Source: Roseimaritima ulvae | Lineage (GTDB): Bacteria > Planctomycetota > Planctomycetia > Pirellulales > Pirellulaceae | Assembly: GCF_008065135.1 (NCBI RefSeq) | Contig: NZ_CP042914.1 | Coordinates: forward strand, 2,294,001 to 2,358,000 | Reading direction: 5' to 3' | DNA length: 64,000 nucleotides | Part shown: piece after piece, positions 5,765 through 42,798 of the stretch | Layout: every line of letters starts with the position of its first letter | Numbering within the stretch: position 1 is the stretch's first letter | Notes under the pieces: generated by a model | Databases searched by the model: none | Told to the model about the DNA's origin: nothing | The model's input: only the letters and a program-made list of their open reading frames with translations | Made by a program: the position numbers and the translations under genes

Positions 5765-6436
5765 ATGTTGGAGCGCATGCGAAATGCTCTCCTTCTCAAC
5801 GCTGCCGGCCGCCTGCGAATCGCCTGTGCGATGTTTGCGCTGGCTTTCTGCGTCGGCGAGCTGGGTTCCCGGGCGAAGGCTGCCGACTGGTTGACGCTGC
5901 CCAGCACCTACACACACGACGCCAACGGGCAACGTGTCAGTCAGTACGCGCCCCCGGTGGCCAGTTATGCCGTTCAAGTGTCCAATTTTCGCAGCAGCGG
6001 TTACACCCATGCTCGCAGTTCGCTGCAGTACGGTCCTTCTGCCGATAACTATCATCGCGTCGAAGAGTGGGGCGATCCCGTGCGACCTTATGGCGAGTGG
6101 CGATTCCCCTATCGACCCTACTCGCAACCCTATTCCGCTTGGGGTCCGCCCTTAGCCGGCCTGGGCGGCTTGGGATGGGGCGGTGGTTATGGCTATGGCT
6201 ATGGCCCCTCCGGCCCTAACGGAGGCGGGGCAGGAAATCGTCCCGGGGGCGAGCACGGTAATCGCCCAGGTCAAGACGGAGCGGGCGGACAAGCCAATCC
6301 CGGCAACCCCTATCCATCGCTACCCGGCACCGGCTACGACGTGCCACCTCAGTACGATGGGCACTACCCCTCGACGCCCTATCGGCCACGTCTGAACGAT
6401 CGCGACTTCTATCGCGACCCACGCTCCCGTCCCTAG
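5765..6436 (+). CDS. Secreted Gly/Pro/Tyr-rich protein of unknown function
   Basis: The protein has 223 residues. The N-terminus carries a signal peptide with hydrophobic core 'ACAMFALAFCVGEL' and a likely cleavage after 'SRAKA'. The mature part has a short globular region with Tyr/Ser, then low-complexity Gly/Tyr/Pro sequence ('GWGGGYGYGYGPSGPNGGG') and a Pro/Tyr/Arg-rich tail. The composition suggests an unstructured exported or surface protein. No family is recognised. The start could also be the Met four codons downstream (5777). The stop lies just before the tandem array. Confidence 0.6.
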   Translation: MLERMRNALLLNAAGRLRIACAMFALAFCVGELGSRAKAADWLTLPSTYTHDANGQRVSQYAPPVASYAVQVSNFRSSGYTHARSSLQYGPSADNYHRVEEWGDPVRPYGEWRFPYRPYSQPYSAWGPPLAGLGGLGWGGGYGYGYGPSGPNGGGAGNRPGGEHGNRPGQDGAGGQANPGNPYPSLPGTGYDVPPQYDGHYPSTPYRPRLNDRDFYRDPRSRP

Positions 6437-6447
6437 GCGGCGCTAAG

Positions 6448-8357
6448 CGGCTAGCTCGTTTAACCCGTAGCCGCAGGAGCCTCTGAGCGTTGAGCTCAAA
6501 CCAATACGTGCGACAGGCTCCGTAGGCGCAGGCGTTGCCCCGCTGGGAGGTGCAATCGAAGCGAATAGGTTGTGTACAACCATTGGCATGGCAAACCTCC
6601 GCGCCGGCGGCTAGCTCGTTTAACCCGTAGCCGCAGGAGCCTCTGAGCGTTGAGCTCAACCAATACGTGCGACAGGCTCCGTAGGCGCAGGCGTGGTCCG
6701 CCGGGAGGTGCAATCGAAGCGAATACGTTGTGTGCAACCGTTGGCATGGCAAACACCCACGCCGGCCCACGTCGGCGCCTGCGGCTACGGGTTAAACGAG
6801 ATTGCCGCAGGAGCCTCTGAGCGTTGAGCTCGAACCCATACGTGCGACAGGCTCCGTAGGCGCAGGCGTGGTCCGCCGGGATGTGCAATCGAAGCGAATA
6901 CGTTGTGTGCAACCGTTGGCATGGCAAACACCCACGCCGGCCCACGCCGGCGCCTGCGGCTACGGGTTAAACGAGATTGCCGCAGGAGCCTCTGAGCGTT
7001 GAGCTCAAACCAATACGTGCGACAGGCTCCGTAGGCGCAGGCGTGGTCCGCCGGGATGTGCAATCGAAGCGAATACGTTGTGTGCAACCATTGGCATTGC
7101 AAGCACCCGCGCCGGCCCACGTCGGCGGCTGAGGCTACGGGTTAAACGAGATTGCCGCAGGAGCCTCTGAGCGTTGAGCTCAACCAATACGTGCGACAGG
7201 CTCCGTAGGCGCAGGCGTGGTCCGCCGGGAGGTGCAATCGAAGCGAATACGTTGTGTGCAACCGTTGGCATGGCAAACACCCACGCCGGCGGCTAGCTCG
7301 TTTAACCCGTAGCCGCAGGAGCCTCTGAGCGTTGAGCTCGAACCCATACGTGCGACAGGCTCCGTAGGCGCAGGCGTGGTCCGCCGGGATGTGCAATCGA
7401 AGCGAATAGGTTGTGTACAACCATTGGCATGGCAAACACCCGCGCCGGCCCACGCCGGCGCCTGCGGCTACGGGTTAAACGAGATTGCCGCAGGAGCCTC
7501 TGAGCGTTGAGCTCAACCCATACGTGCGACAGGCTCCGTAGGCGCAGGCGTGGTCCGCCGGGAGGTGCAATCGAAGCGAATACGTTGTGTGCAACCGTTG
7601 GCATGGCAAACACCCACGCCGGCCCACGTCGGCGGCTAACTCGTTTAACCCGTAGCCGCAGGAGCCTTAGAGCGTTGAGCTCGAACCCATACGTGCGACA
7701 GGCTCCGTAGGCGCAGGCGTTGCCCCGCCGGGAGGTGCAATCGAAGCGAATAGGTTGTGTACAACCATTGGCATCGCAAACACCCGCGCCGGCCCACGCC
7801 GGCGCCTGCGGCTACGGGTTAAACGAGATTGCCGCAGGAGCCTCTGAGCGTTGAGCTCGAACCCATACGTGCGACAGGCTCCGTAGGCGCAGGCGTGGTC
7901 CGCCGGGATGTGCAATCGAAGCGAATAGGTTGTGTACAACCATTGGCATGGCAAACACCCACGCCGGCCCACGCCGGCGGCTGCGGCTACGGGTTAAACG
8001 AGATTGCCGCAGGAGCCTTAGAGCGTTGAGCTCGAACCCATACGTGCGACAGGCTCCGTAGGCGCAGGCGTTGCCCCGCCGGGAGGTGCAATCGAAGCGA
8101 ATAGGTTGTGTACAACCATTGGCATAGCAAACACCCGCGCCGGCCCACGCCGGCGCCTGCGGCTACGGGTTAAACGAGATTGCCGCAGGAGCCTCTGAGC
8201 GTTGAGCTCAAACCCATACGTGCGACAGGCTCCGTAGGCGCAGGCGTTGCCCCGCCGGGAGGTGCAATCGAAGCGAATAGGTTGTGTACAACCATTGGCA
8301 TTGCAAACACCCGCGGTCGCCCACGCCGGCGCCTGCGGCTACGGGTTAAACGAGCCA
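6448..8357. repeat. Tandem array of 11 units of about 158-176 bp
   Basis: The motif GAGCGTTGAGCTC recurs at 6485, 6645, 6819, 6994, 7169, 7327, 7502, 7670, 7846, 8021 and 8197. Each unit contains the boxes ACAGGCTCCGTAGGCGCAGG, GTGCAATCGAAGCGAATA, a near-palindrome GGTTGTGTACAACC or its variant, and TTGGCAT. Units are joined by one of two linkers holding the same ~23-bp module in opposite orientation (CTCGTTTAACCCGTAGCCGC or its reverse complement). The whole array is bounded by inverted copies of that module at 6448-6476 and 8329-8357. Reading frames in it are by-products: spacings are not consistently multiples of three. It separates a secreted-protein gene from the gntR operon. Confidence 0.9.
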
Positions 8358-34986: not shown

Positions 34987-36714
34987 CCCGGATTATGCAC
35001 CCGTTTATCGGTTGCCCCTATAGCGCAAAAGCCTCAGCCCTGCTATGTATTGGAGTTACGACACTTCATACACGACAAGCCCGAGGCTTCTGCAATGGCA
35101 CAGCGTAAACGAAAACGCCCCGTTTTGAAACGGCTCCGACGACAAGCGGTCGATTTTGATTTCGACGGCGGAACGCTGACCACCGATGGTGGCTTGCTGC
35201 TTCTGCGAGAGGTCGACCGAAGACTCGATTTGATTCGACGGCTCGATCAAGCCATCCCCGATCCTCGCGATCCGCTTCACACGGTCCACCCTCAAGCCGA
35301 ACTGCTCACCTCCCGCATCTTTGCCATCGCCGCAGGTTACGAAGATGGCAACGACCACGACGCGCTGCGACACGACCCGGCGTTTCAAGTCGCTGCCGGG
35401 CGGGTTCCCGCGGAACACAATTACGACGGCGATCACTCCCCGCTGGCCAGCCCCTCAACGCACTCCCGATTAGAGAACAGGATCGACACCAAGACAATCT
35501 TGCGGTTGAACGAGCTCCTTGTGGACCTGTTTCTGGAAAGCTATGAGCAACCGCCCGAAGAAATCATCTTGGACTACGATGCCACCGACGACACGATCCA
35601 CGGAAATCAAGAGCAACGGCATTTCAACGGCTTTTATGATGGCTACTGCTTTCTTCCCCTGTATGTTTTCTGTGACGACCACCTGTTGGTTTCGCACCTT
35701 CGCCCCAGCAAAGTCGGGGCCGCCCATCATGCTCGGCCGATTACCAAATTGCTGATCCAGAAGATCCGCTCCCGCTGGCCCGATGTGAAAATCATCATTC
35801 GCGGCGACAGCGGATTTGCCATCGAACGCTTGATGCGTTGGTGTGATAAAAACGATGTCGGATACGTCTTTGGCTTGCAGCACAACAACGTTTTAGACAA
35901 GCAAATCGCTTGCGAAATGACGCAAGCCCAGATTCGCCACGGACTCTATGGGGGCACGCAGTCCGTCTTCAAGTGGTTTCGCTACCGCACACAAAAATCT
36001 TGGGATTGCAGTCGCTGGGTCGTGGGTAAGGCGGAATATAGCAGCCAGGGCACCAACCCGCGTTTCGTGGTCACGAATCTCCCCAGTGAGGAAGGCATCG
36101 TTGATCCGACTTATCGTCGCGTTACTATCGACGGCAAGCGGGTGCGGCAGTTGCAGGATGCGGGAACGCTTTGCTCGGTGGCTATTAATCCGGAAGAGTT
36201 CTACCGCACACGCTACTGCCCGCGCGGCGAGATGGAGAACCGGATCAAGGAGACACAATTGGGGCTGTTTGCCGACCGCACCAGTTGTAGCAGGTTCGTG
36301 GCCAACCAGTTCCGCTTGATGCTTTCGTCCTTTGCATACGTGTTGCTCGATGGCGTGCGTCGCCTGGGACTTTCTGACACGAAGGCAGCACGCCTGCGCG
36401 TCGATACCATCCGTCTGCGGCTTCTCAAGATCGCCGCTCGCGTTCGGGTGACCAGCCGCCGTGTGGTCTTTCACATGGCGAGCCATTGTCCCTCCGAAGC
36501 TCTGTACGAGCACGTCATGCAGCGTCTGTGCCGCAGCGATTAACGCCTCCCCAACTCCCCGCGAGGCGACACTCAGAGCGAGCGACATCGATTTGGGGAG
36601 GGGGAGCTTCTGCGCTGACCGCCGGCCCAAGCCCCTCAAAACGCCTCCCACCCCGTCGCAGGAAGTAGCGAGCCCAACTGCCCGCGTCAACAACGGGCGG
36701 ATGCATAATCCGGG
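34987..36714 (+). mobile_element. IS1380-family insertion sequence, complete
   Basis: The terminal inverted repeats start CCCGGATTATGCA on the left (34987) and end TGCATAATCCGGG on the right (36714). The element is 1,728 bp and flanked by a 4-bp direct repeat CTAG (34983-34986 and 36715-36718), as expected for IS1380. It carries one intact transposase gene. The right flank continues into a hairpin CCCCGGAC-GCTA-GTCCGGGG, so the target was a palindromic repeat. Ends and duplication are intact, suggesting recent insertion. Confidence 0.92.
35095..36543 (+). CDS. IS1380-family transposase
   Basis: The start at 35095 ('MAQRKRKRPVLKRLRRQ') gives 482 residues; a start 45 nt earlier is possible. 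'TTDGGLLLLREVDRRLDL' near the N-terminus, 'IILDYDATDDTIHGNQEQ' (first catalytic Asp), 'IIIRGDSGFAIERLMRWCD' (second Asp) and 'YCPRGEMENRIKETQLGLF' (catalytic Glu region) are the family's DDE landmarks. The frame is uninterrupted. It catalyses cut-and-paste transposition of the element that encloses it. Confidence 0.95.
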   Translation: MAQRKRKRPVLKRLRRQAVDFDFDGGTLTTDGGLLLLREVDRRLDLIRRLDQAIPDPRDPLHTVHPQAELLTSRIFAIAAGYEDGNDHDALRHDPAFQVAAGRVPAEHNYDGDHSPLASPSTHSRLENRIDTKTILRLNELLVDLFLESYEQPPEEIILDYDATDDTIHGNQEQRHFNGFYDGYCFLPLYVFCDDHLLVSHLRPSKVGAAHHARPITKLLIQKIRSRWPDVKIIIRGDSGFAIERLMRWCDKNDVGYVFGLQHNNVLDKQIACEMTQAQIRHGLYGGTQSVFKWFRYRTQKSWDCSRWVVGKAEYSSQGTNPRFVVTNLPSEEGIVDPTYRRVTIDGKRVRQLQDAGTLCSVAINPEEFYRTRYCPRGEMENRIKETQLGLFADRTSCSRFVANQFRLMLSSFAYVLLDGVRRLGLSDTKAARLRVDTIRLRLLKIAARVRVTSRRVVFHMASHCPSEALYEHVMQRLCRSD

Positions 36715-37409
36715 CTAGCCCCGGACGCTAGTCCGGGGTTACGGATCTGCCAGGAACCGAAAGTCGCGAAGCGACGGCATGTGTCTGCTGAGCCAATGTG
36801 AGACGCTGCCGCAATACCCCTGTCGTCACTTCGTGACTCTGCGGATTCGCCTCCCGTTCCTGGGACTTGCGTCCCAGGCTATCGCCTGCCGTCGCTGCGC
36901 GACTCCGGACTGCTCCAATAGGTGCCACCCATCCATTGCGCACTGCTCCAATAGGTGCCACCCATCCATTGCGCACCGCTCTAATAGGTGCCACCCACCC
37001 ATTGCGCCCGGCCATTCGCTAGCAATATTGCGAGATAGGTGGGTGGCACCTATTAGTTTGGTGGGTGGCACCTATTAGTTTGCTCGGGGAAATTAGGCCC
37101 GGAGGGTCGGTACAGCCTCTGCCGGGGCTGTTAAGCCCCGGTGAACGCAGCGACCTAAATTAGAGGCCCGGAGGGTTGACACAGCGGCGGTTATCGCGGC
37201 AAATCCGTGACCGCTTCAATAGGTGCCACCCACCCATTGCGCCCGGCCATTCGCTAGCAATATCGCGAGATAGGTGGGTGGCACCTATTAGTGGCACCTA
37301 TTAGTGAAAAACCATTAGTGATTAGTGAAAAATCCAAACTCTGGCGAGTTCGGCTACGGTGGGGCGACCGTCGGTACACGGGCCGGGGGCCATGCTACGA
37401 AGGCGGAGG
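36715..37409. other. Gene-free, repeat-rich stretch right of the IS
   Basis: About 700 bp without a credible gene. It holds the CCCCGGAC/GTCCGGGG hairpin (36719-36738), three left arms and two right arms of the AATAGGTGCCACC element (36917-37079), a further copy (37218-37290), duplicated GCCCGGAGGGT segments near 37098 and 37167, TTAGTGA microrepeats, a GTAGC-footed REP (37334-37357) and a GTAGCATGG palindrome with one C missing (37377-37398). Confidence 0.8.
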
Positions 37410-40457: not shown

Positions 40458-41621
40458 ATGAATCGAATCGAACGAATACGGCAACTATGCGGGCACGGTT
40501 CGCTGGAGCAAGCCGGCGGGGCGGAGCCGTACCAACAGGTCGCGACGTGGCATGCGATCGTCTGTTCGCGGCTGGGACGCAGCCTGGAACGCCGGCGGCG
40601 AACCTTCGACTATTTGCAGCAAGCGGTCTTAAAAACCAAACGCGACGGAGCGGCATTGCTGGTCGTCGCCGGCACGGCTCCCGAACCCTGGGTCCGACGC
40701 GCCGCGGAACTGTTTCACGTTCCGCTCCAGGTGCTCGAGGCGACCGAGCCGCATTCCCGTGATCGCTTGCTGGTTGGCGCAGCGGACCGCGTGTTTGCGG
40801 TCTGGGTTCGCCGCCGAGGCAAGATCGCCGAATTGCTGGGCCGCCGTTTGGCCGTCTGTGGGGATGAGTCGACGTGGGTGGCCGTCAACGAGGATGCCGA
40901 CTGTGCGGCGCGGTCGCTGATCGCCCGCGGCGCCGTTGGCTGGTATCTGCCCGAACCCGATTTGCAGGGCTCGGCGGTTCCTGCGACCGGCGATCGTGCC
41001 GCGATTTTGAAAGCACAGGCCGTCGACTGGACGCAGTACTTGGTCCATTGCACGCGCGGTCGCGGCGGGCCGCTGCCGGGGCAATCCGAGGCGCAGTATC
41101 ACGACGAAGTCCTGCTGGGGGGTGAGGGAGGTCGGCCGGCGACGGCGGCCGAGACGCTGCGGAAGATTCTCGCCAGCGGTTGGTTGCTGGGCGCCGCGCG
41201 GGTCAGTCGCCGCGAGTTCCCGGTGGTTTGCTGGTCGGAGGTCCCGCTGCCGAAGTGTCTGGCTAGGCGGATTTTCCGGCCGCATCTGGGCCGCTGGGAC
41301 TACGAACCGTTTGGGCTGGCGGTGCGAAAGTCGGCCGCCCAGCGGTTGGGGATCCAGCCGGTGATCTACGGCACCGCCGCAGAGCGTGAACGGTTGCCGG
41401 TCGATCAACGCTGGCGGTTTCAGGCTCAGGGCACGCGGGTAGACTGGCGGAATGAAAAAGAGTGGCGTTGCCGCGGCAGTTTGGATTTATCGCGGGTGAG
41501 TGCCGACGAAGCCTTGGTGTTTGTCGGCGAGCCGGGCGCGGTTGCAGCGACAGCGGCCGTTTCCCCATGGCCGGTTGTCGACGTCGCCACGTTCCTCTGC
41601 AGCGCGAAAGGGGTACAATAG
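40458..41621 (+). CDS. Unknown two-part protein: SLOG-like N-terminus, ADP-ribosyltransferase-like C-terminus
   Basis: This 387-residue protein has no certain family. Residues ~65-133 ('ALLVVAGTAPEPWVRRAAEL', 'RDRLLVGAADRVFAVWVRRRGK') resemble the nucleotide-binding SLOG/lysine-decarboxylase-like Rossmann fold. Residues ~190-345 hold 'YLVHCTR' (His197), 'ETLRKILASGWLLGA', 'VVCWSEVPLP', 'YEPFGLAVRKS', 'QPVIYG' and 'NEKEWRC' (332-338), an order like that of DUF2971/AbiGi/DarT-type ART-fold proteins, where His, Tyr and Glu line the NAD site. Both assignments are by eye. The stop is 37 nt before nadA, on the same strand, so the two are probably co-transcribed. Confidence 0.6.
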   Translation: MNRIERIRQLCGHGSLEQAGGAEPYQQVATWHAIVCSRLGRSLERRRRTFDYLQQAVLKTKRDGAALLVVAGTAPEPWVRRAAELFHVPLQVLEATEPHSRDRLLVGAADRVFAVWVRRRGKIAELLGRRLAVCGDESTWVAVNEDADCAARSLIARGAVGWYLPEPDLQGSAVPATGDRAAILKAQAVDWTQYLVHCTRGRGGPLPGQSEAQYHDEVLLGGEGGRPATAAETLRKILASGWLLGAARVSRREFPVVCWSEVPLPKCLARRIFRPHLGRWDYEPFGLAVRKSAAQRLGIQPVIYGTAAERERLPVDQRWRFQAQGTRVDWRNEKEWRCRGSLDLSRVSADEALVFVGEPGAVAATAAVSPWPVVDVATFLCSAKGVQ

Positions 41622-41658
41622 TCAGAGTGTTGTTCTGGTTAATTTTTTGGAGTGTTTT

Positions 41659-42798
41659 GTGAGTACCGTCGCCGAATCGGAAGCCCAACATCCATTGCCG
41701 CCTTATAAGTCGATGGAAAACGATGTTCTGGAGCAGCGGATCGAAGCGGTTCGTCAACAGCTGGGCGACCGGTTGCTGATTCTGGGGCACCACTACCAAC
41801 AGGATGAGGTGATCGCGCACTGCGACCTTCGCGGCGACAGTTACCAACTGAGCCAGATGGCGGCCAGCAGTAGTGCTTGCGAAAAAATTGTCTTCTGCGG
41901 CGTGCACTTTATGGCCGAAACGGCAGACATCCTGGCCAACCGCCCGGATCGCGTGGAAGCTCGCGACGGGCGCCGCATCCCCGTCGTCTTGCCCGATATG
42001 GCGGCCGGTTGCTCGATGGCCGACATGGCGGCGATCAACCAAGTCGAAGCGGCTTGGGAAGATATGGGCGAGATCATCGATACCGAACAGGTCATCCCGG
42101 TGACCTACATCAATAGCGCCGCCAGTTTAAAAGCGTTCTGCGGCCGCCACGGTGGGATCGTCTGCACCAGCAGTAATGCTCAAGCCGTTTTGCAATGGGC
42201 CTTCGAACGTGGCCAGCGAGTGTTCTTCTTCCCCGATCAGCATCTCGGACGCAACACCGCGCTGAAGATGGGGATCGACGTCGAAGCCATGCCGGTCTGG
42301 GATCCCTACGCCATGGAACTGGGCGGCAACAGCGAAGCGGCGCTGGAAAACAGCCGCGTGATCCTCTGGAAAGGACACTGCAGCGTGCACCAAATGTTCC
42401 GCCCCGAGCACGTTCAGCAGTTTCGGGAAAAACACGCCGGAATCAAAATCCTCGTGCACCCCGAATGCCCGCGCGAAGTGAACGACTTGGCCGACGTATC
42501 GGGCAGCACCGGAAAGATCATTCAAACGGTGAAAGAAAGTCCGGCGGGAACCAAGTGGGCGATCGGCACAGAACTGCACTTGGTCAATCGCTTAAAGCAG
42601 GAACATCCTGAGCAAGAGATTCATTTCCTCTCGCCGGTGCTGTGCATGTGCGCCACGATGTACCGCATCGACTTGGCACACCTTTGCTGGAGTCTGGAAA
42701 ACCTCCGCGACGGACATCCCGTCAACGTGATCGGAGTCGATGACGAGACCAGCAAGTGGAGTCTCGTCGCGTTGGAACGCATGCTGGCCGTGCGCTAG
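41659..42798 (+). CDS. nadA: Quinolinate synthase
   Basis: The GTG start at 41659 follows TGGAG; an ATG at 41713 is an alternative. The 379-residue protein has 'LLILGHHYQQDEVIAHCDLRGDSYQLSQMA', 'IVFCGVHFMAETADIL', 'PVTYINSAASLKAFCGRHGGIVCTSSNA', 'FPDQHLGRNTALKMG' and 'LCMCATMYRIDLAHL', including the conserved Cys ligands of the [4Fe-4S] cluster. It condenses iminoaspartate with dihydroxyacetone phosphate to quinolinate in NAD synthesis. nadB and nadC are not adjacent. The gene upstream is the SLOG/ART-like unknown. Confidence 0.96.
   Translation: MSTVAESEAQHPLPPYKSMENDVLEQRIEAVRQQLGDRLLILGHHYQQDEVIAHCDLRGDSYQLSQMAASSSACEKIVFCGVHFMAETADILANRPDRVEARDGRRIPVVLPDMAAGCSMADMAAINQVEAAWEDMGEIIDTEQVIPVTYINSAASLKAFCGRHGGIVCTSSNAQAVLQWAFERGQRVFFFPDQHLGRNTALKMGIDVEAMPVWDPYAMELGGNSEAALENSRVILWKGHCSVHQMFRPEHVQQFREKHAGIKILVHPECPREVNDLADVSGSTGKIIQTVKESPAGTKWAIGTELHLVNRLKQEHPEQEIHFLSPVLCMCATMYRIDLAHLCWSLENLRDGHPVNVIGVDDETSKWSLVALERMLAVR

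Follow-up and report, generated by a model that had tools for sequence, protein, structure and literature searches.

A predicted SLOG-ADP-ribosyltransferase fusion protein near-universal in Pirellulaceae and adjacent to nadA in one branch

What is the role of a protein that appears to join a nucleotide-binding domain to an NAD-consuming fold, and does its position beside a gene for NAD synthesis bear upon that role? This question is raised by an open reading frame within the window, a stretch of 64,000 nucleotides from Roseimaritima ulvae, whose genome (G000) is a single contig of 8.21 Mb. The original prediction described a 387-aa protein with a SLOG-like nucleotide-binding region, a downstream part whose motif order matches ART-fold proteins, and quinolinate synthase as its downstream neighbour, and proposed that these form a regulated NAD-handling or defence module. 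As shown below, that prediction is sound as anatomy but overreaching as an NAD or defence module; both folds are already known, and what appears new, in the open literature searched, is their fusion. The genes and domains concerned are the following.

40458..41621, + strand: SLOG-ART fusion protein, 387 aa (open reading frame; relatives in 196 of 241 Pirellulaceae genomes; model pLDDT 89)
40545..40955, + strand: predicted N-terminal SLOG/DprA-like Rossmann domain, residues ~30-165 (by Foldseek; no sequence-level DprA match)
41040..41590, + strand: predicted C-terminal AbiGi/DUF2971-related, DarT-like ADP-ribosyltransferase-fold domain, residues ~195-378 (pLDDT 92.7; DarT in the PDB; AbiGi in 28 of 65 members)
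41659..42798, + strand: nadA, quinolinate synthase, probable GTG start (Pfam NadA E 1.3e-95; 37-nt gap, without a terminator-like site between the genes)

The open reading frame is present as described, running from an ATG to a TAG stop at 41619-41621, and is not a chance frame, since relatives with 22-64% identity were aligned from 22 other genomes; the motifs quoted for it (H197, LRKILASG, CWSEVPL, YEPFG, PVIYG and EKEWR) are likewise all in place. The single window protein yielded nothing above cut-off against Pfam, NCBIfam, PADLOC and PDB sequences, and searching PDB sequences with a profile built from the full alignment gave no match either. Elsewhere in the window, at 36909-37082, three copies of a 33-bp unit and two of a 22-bp unit, each repeated in tandem and with a common GGTGGCACCTATT-like core, stand downstream of a transposase-like open reading frame (35050-36543).

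Two predicted folds in one protein

The full-length protein was modelled by AlphaFold2 with the family alignment (pLDDT 89) and compared with the PDB by Foldseek, which placed DprA on top (3uqz, E 2e-4, probability 1.00; 4ljk, E 9e-4) and, lower down, ShosA (8zva, E 8e-3) and LOG (2a33, E 4e-2); against a viral library, YspA-type SLOG and DUF2493 proteins led, with weaker E-values. These matches agree with the SLOG-like region read from the sequence, and a SLOG (DprA-like) Rossmann fold for the modelled N-terminal half is well supported. Because hhalign detected no sequence similarity between the N-terminal-half alignment and 19 DprA proteins (probability 0.2, P 0.27), the term 'DprA-like' is a statement about fold and not about family membership. 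An Asp/Glu racemase assignment for the N-terminal part (PF01177, E 0.037) was rejected: it occurred in 2 of 23 members, below the cut-off, and the fold search says SLOG.

For the C-terminal domain, which was modelled by AlphaFold2 from 65 sequences, the only credible PDB matches are three Thermus DarT entries: 7omy (E 5e-3, probability 0.97), together with 7omx and 7omv (E 1.2e-2 and 2.3e-2 for these two, at probabilities of 0.90 and 0.91), all at modest TM-scores of about 0.4 (0.43). No rival fold scored below E 1, and no SIR2-type fold was found. The scores are moderate but exclusive, and the fold had been named in advance in the original prediction; hence the assignment of a DarT-like ART fold to the C-terminal half of the model is well supported. 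Structure prediction combined with a fold search, which had been suggested as a check, thus recovered both a SLOG-type Rossmann fold and an ART fold.

At the level of sequence, the kin of this domain are AbiGi and DUF2971. Pfam AbiGi (PF10899) matches it in 28 of 65 members (best E 8e-6) and PADLOC AbiGi in 25 of 65, and hhalign against standalone AbiGi-like proteins of the phylum gives E 1.3e-28. The window member itself reaches 16.4 bits against an AbiGi cut-off of 22.4 (E 0.068 for the whole protein, 0.0094 when only the domain is searched), in a match that spans the CF[ST]..PL, YG and VxY region. A genome-wide search for AbiGi in relatives gave no match, in its controls as little as elsewhere, and so does not speak for absence. 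Kinship to DUF2971 is weaker (hhalign E 3.8e-5, probability 71), and the Pfam DUF2971 profile itself (PF11185) is not significant (2 of 65 members, best E 0.11). No profile similarity was detected between the domain and the DarT family (hhalign, P 0.08), nor did the DarT profile PF14487 match anything in the window genome; 'DarT-like' is therefore also a statement about fold rather than family membership. In other words, both the DarT and the DprA assignments rest on structure, inasmuch as hhalign gave no sequence signal for either. A different fusion occurs in another planctomycete (L094:748-2235, genome G452), in which an AbiGi-like domain of the C-terminal type is joined to DUF4427 (E 8e-23).

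Invariant residues and putative activity

Conservation within the C-terminal domain is concentrated in the following motifs.

41046..41057, + strand: HxTR motif on the first strand, with H197 and R200 (H and R in 65 of 65)
41229..41237, + strand: C[FW][ST] motif on the second strand, with S260 as its last residue (64 of 65 have S or T)
41358..41369, + strand: PVxY motif ending in Y304 (Y in 65 of 65)
41454..41468, + strand: ExEWR motif with E333 and E335, a candidate catalytic glutamate pair (both in 65 of 65; invariant in the DUF2971 alignment too)

Thus H197, R200, Y304, E333 and E335 are identical in every aligned C-terminal domain, while residue 260 is serine or threonine, and residue 337 arginine, in all but one (64/65 each); the ART-like motif order that had been proposed is borne out by this conservation, and the 'Glu336 region' that had been singled out corresponds to E333/E335. 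The VxY tyrosine, like both glutamates, is kept in the DUF2971 alignment as well. ART classes are described by the motifs [H-Y-E] and [R-S-E], and DarT1 uses H17 and E152, with S63 at the class-tyrosine position being dispensable there (PMC11543638). A histidine on strand 1, a serine or threonine on strand 2 and a late ExE fit these classes, as judged by order and not by superposed coordinates; moreover, strict conservation of such residues among whole proteins that often are just 25-40% identical is the pattern that one expects of an active site.

The reading favoured here, with a probability of roughly one half, is that the fusion protein is a SLOG-gated, NAD+-dependent ADP-ribosyltransferase or NADase with a putative activity and a resident cellular role. 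It is favoured because of the confident models, the SLOG and DarT folds, the AbiGi/DUF2971 kinship, the invariant residues and the wide single-copy presence described below. The DprA-like SLOG Rossmann domain would bind a nucleotide or single-stranded nucleic acid and would control or position the AbiGi/DUF2971-type domain at the C-terminus. This second domain, with its DarT-like ART fold, would use NAD+ either to ADP-ribosylate a cellular target or, by hydrolysis, as a substrate in itself; in Roseimaritima and related genera, and in that branch only, a probable shared transcript with nadA would tie the level of the fusion protein to NAD supply. The architecture is well supported; we infer the use of NAD+, the catalytic activity, the target and a regulatory part for the SLOG domain. 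Several observations count against the favoured reading: the lack of profile similarity to DarT and the modest TM-score; the window member's score below the AbiGi cut-off and the SLOG half's lack of sequence kinship to DprA; the naming of AbiGi as a putative antitoxin by Pfam; the finding that lactococcal AbiGi is not toxic in E. coli (PMC3985639); and the dispensability of the DarT1 serine at the second motif position (PMC11543638).

Some of these points bear upon a non-catalytic alternative, in which the ART-like fold has been kept as a binding protein and its chemistry lost. The low sequence kinship to true DarT is compatible with such a loss, as is the fact that no activity of AbiGi or DUF2971 was reported in the open literature searched, but the strict invariance of H197, R200, Y304, E333 and E335 makes it rather improbable.

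A further possibility is a special case of the favoured reading, so that the confidences placed in the two overlap: the protein may be an ADP-ribosyltransferase acting on DNA or another nucleic acid, its DprA-like domain bringing single-stranded DNA to the DarT-like domain, which would mark or pause DNA in times of stress. This is attractive because the two halves independently have as their closest folds proteins that act on single-stranded DNA, DprA and DarT (the matches include Helicobacter pylori DprA entries whose titles refer to ssDNA binding, and 7omy is a DarT-ssDNA-NAD+ complex), and because two species of genus g69 (G106, at L109:5017-5562, and G108, in L067) have a Macro-domain gene (Pfam E 2.7e-39) immediately upstream of the fusion gene; domains of the Macro type undo the kind of modification that DarT makes. 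The ligands of SLOG folds are many, however, and the Macro neighbour is confined to this one genus, whose third species (G107) has no Macro gene within the fetched flank. As no Macro match exists anywhere in the window genome, a Macro eraser evidently is not needed. Action on nucleic acid seems unlikely, and somewhat less likely is the fuller proposal of a resident, non-mobile planctomycete DNA ADP-ribosyltransferase that serves normal control of replication or repair instead of being a toxin-antitoxin weapon.

Distribution, neighbourhood and the nadA link

The wide presence to which the favoured reading appeals was established with a profile built from 23 aligned family members. It detects the fusion gene in 196 of 241 Pirellulaceae genomes (129 of the 159 of good quality) and in 55 of 68 genera, nearly always at one place per genome. 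In the rest of the phylum 18 of 294 genomes match; clear scores outside Pirellulaceae belong to family f66 and to one f99 genome, the remaining matches being mostly shorter and to proteins of the C-terminal type. A scan of 84,980 species for the pattern RWDxEPYG, which is silent on proteins that do not carry the pattern, gave 110 confirmed relatives; the 80 of these that were listed are planctomycete records, except L262, which is titled merely as a bacterium. Among the matches listed, the named relatives nearest the window member are from Roseimaritima (for instance L183, Roseimaritima sediminicola, at 70% in the C-terminal domain). The fusion gene is, then, near-universal, chromosomal and single-copy in Pirellulaceae, and, given a broadly vertical tree, apparently is inherited vertically. 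Some family members look broken, through assembly error or decay: in L042 (G024) the SLOG part is in another frame, and in L045 (G007) a stop occurs inside the match.

A search for conserved neighbours at 63 loci found nadA alone to recur as an adjacent gene; neither an AbiGii-like gene nor any other recurrent partner appeared at these loci, save nadA in one clade. One neighbour cluster occurs at 17 loci, at distances from the fusion gene that vary from locus to locus, and seems to be a widespread family of paralogues. Immediate neighbours elsewhere are ordinary housekeeping genes from 115 Pfam families, none of which is found in more than 3 of 89 proteins. The neighbours show no enrichment in defence genes: the PADLOC matches listed are generic kinase models (PD-T4-6 and mad6), which were rejected as defence genes in that the same set gives Pkinase matches, and the 25 PADLOC families among the neighbour matches listed include no Thoeris model. 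Phage records gave no match to the fusion protein, and in plasmid records the only matches, two weak ones, were confined to the C-terminal half.

These observations bear upon the defence module that had been proposed. AbiGi is a phage-resistance family and, as noted, its PADLOC model recognizes 25 of the 65 members, so that one might envisage an abortive-infection effector whose SLOG domain senses an infection-made nucleotide and whose ART domain responds by exhausting NAD+ or by modifying a target. A SLOG domain paired with an NAD-consuming domain is, moreover, the plan of Thoeris ThsA (PMC7272460, PMC9503650). Such an effector is, however, made quite improbable by the distribution and context of the gene: it is single-copy, near-universal and broadly vertical in its tree; it stands among housekeeping genes, with no recurrent partner and with generic kinases as the only adjoining defence-model matches; and it has no phage match and just the two weak plasmid matches. 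The proposal of a defence module is accordingly not supported.

The nadA neighbour itself is real: its product also scores over the cut-off of TIGR00550, and its probable GTG start at 41659 is preceded by TTGGAG and lies exactly 37 nt beyond the stop of the fusion gene, as had been reported. Inasmuch as no terminator-like site occurs in the intergenic gap, co-transcription is plausible and, to judge from the layout of the sequence, likely in the window genome. Across the family, nadA is the next gene downstream, in the same orientation, at 11 of 63 deep loci and, among the matches listed, at 21 of 80 named loci, the adjacency occurring in seven genera (g1, g7, g12, g78, g79, part of g84, and g89). 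On the family tree the 11 linked loci all fall inside one Rhodopirellula-Roseimaritima clade, with unlinked genera interspersed (4 label changes, versus 10.3 in shuffles); this is most simply read as a linkage that was ancestral and was later broken in some lineages. The next best clusters of adjacent neighbours within the linked clade reach 4-5 loci, and that the nadA adjacency outlasts them hints modestly that the two genes are expressed together.

In their occurrence, however, the two genes are uncoupled. At least 16 genomes in which no nadA was detected carry the fusion gene, among them G152 (95% complete, on one contig), a count that leaves out G140 and G156, which are not positive for the fusion gene, and to which draft genomes add noise; conversely, nadA is present in 18 of the 20 genomes listed as lacking the fusion gene. 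It is therefore unlikely that the fusion protein is obligatory for NAD synthesis by way of quinolinate. These findings also bear upon the idea that the fusion protein regulates NAD biosynthesis, with the SLOG domain sensing a nucleotide of the NAD pathway and the second domain modifying or controlling NadA or the NAD level: the persistence of nadA as the next gene in seven genera speaks for such a regulator, but its confinement to one clade and the genomes that have either gene without the other make it very improbable. The survey of homologous neighbourhoods thus upheld the adjacency in one clade but gave no general NAD or defence context, and an NAD-handling module with nadA as its general partner is not borne out; the adjacency is a habit of one branch rather than a key to the job of the fusion protein.

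Two further observations concern nadA. One locus (L033, G014) has a second, partial nadA-like match (243-563) about 6 kb from the complete nadA (6217-7353) beside the fusion gene. Several Pirellulaceae genomes (g81, such as the single-contig G152) have no NadA match, and genomes of this type may be without the aspartate route to NAD or may use a divergent enzyme.

Significance and comparison with known systems

ART-fold enzymes of the AbiGi, DUF2971 and DarT type are regarded as toxins and parts of phage defence. Here an ART-type domain whose putative active site is strictly kept is joined to a SLOG domain of the sensor type, in a protein that an entire bacterial family carries in one copy per genome. 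In the open literature searched, a scope outside which most subscription journals lie, there was no description of a SLOG fusion to an AbiGi/DUF2971-type domain or of a near-core, non-mobile protein of this type. Should the fusion protein be an active enzyme, as the favoured reading holds, then planctomycetes would employ ADP-ribosylation in their ordinary physiology, and the AbiGi/DUF2971 proteins would include a housekeeping representative amenable to study.

Among known systems, Thoeris ThsA, in which an NAD-consuming SIR2 domain is joined to SLOG (PMC7272460, PMC9503650), has the same general plan; in the fusion protein, by contrast, the NAD-using fold is a different one, the SLOG domain comes first and no ThsB/TIR partner was seen. 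DprA and other SLOG proteins (ShosA, LOG and YspA) provide the closest solved folds for the N-terminal domain, though DprA shares no sequence similarity with it and G000 keeps a separate, true DprA (G000:C1:513837-514454). For the C-terminal domain it is DarT whose solved fold comes closest, with the same order of histidine, helix, strand and late glutamate; the fusion protein nevertheless differs in having neither profile-level similarity nor the YVPFYF and QAEFLV motifs of DarT and, unlike DarTG, has no DarG or Macro gene adjacent to it except in genus g69. From AbiGi, whose profile matches the C-terminal half of 28 of 65 members, the fusion protein is set apart by its SLOG domain, by the lack of a recurring AbiGii-like partner gene, by a location outside islands and, for the window member, by a score below the curated cut-off. 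Finally, the aligned DUF2971 examples have no SLOG domain, but the VxY and W..ExE.R signature is common to them and to the fusion protein, with glutamates that are invariant in each family.
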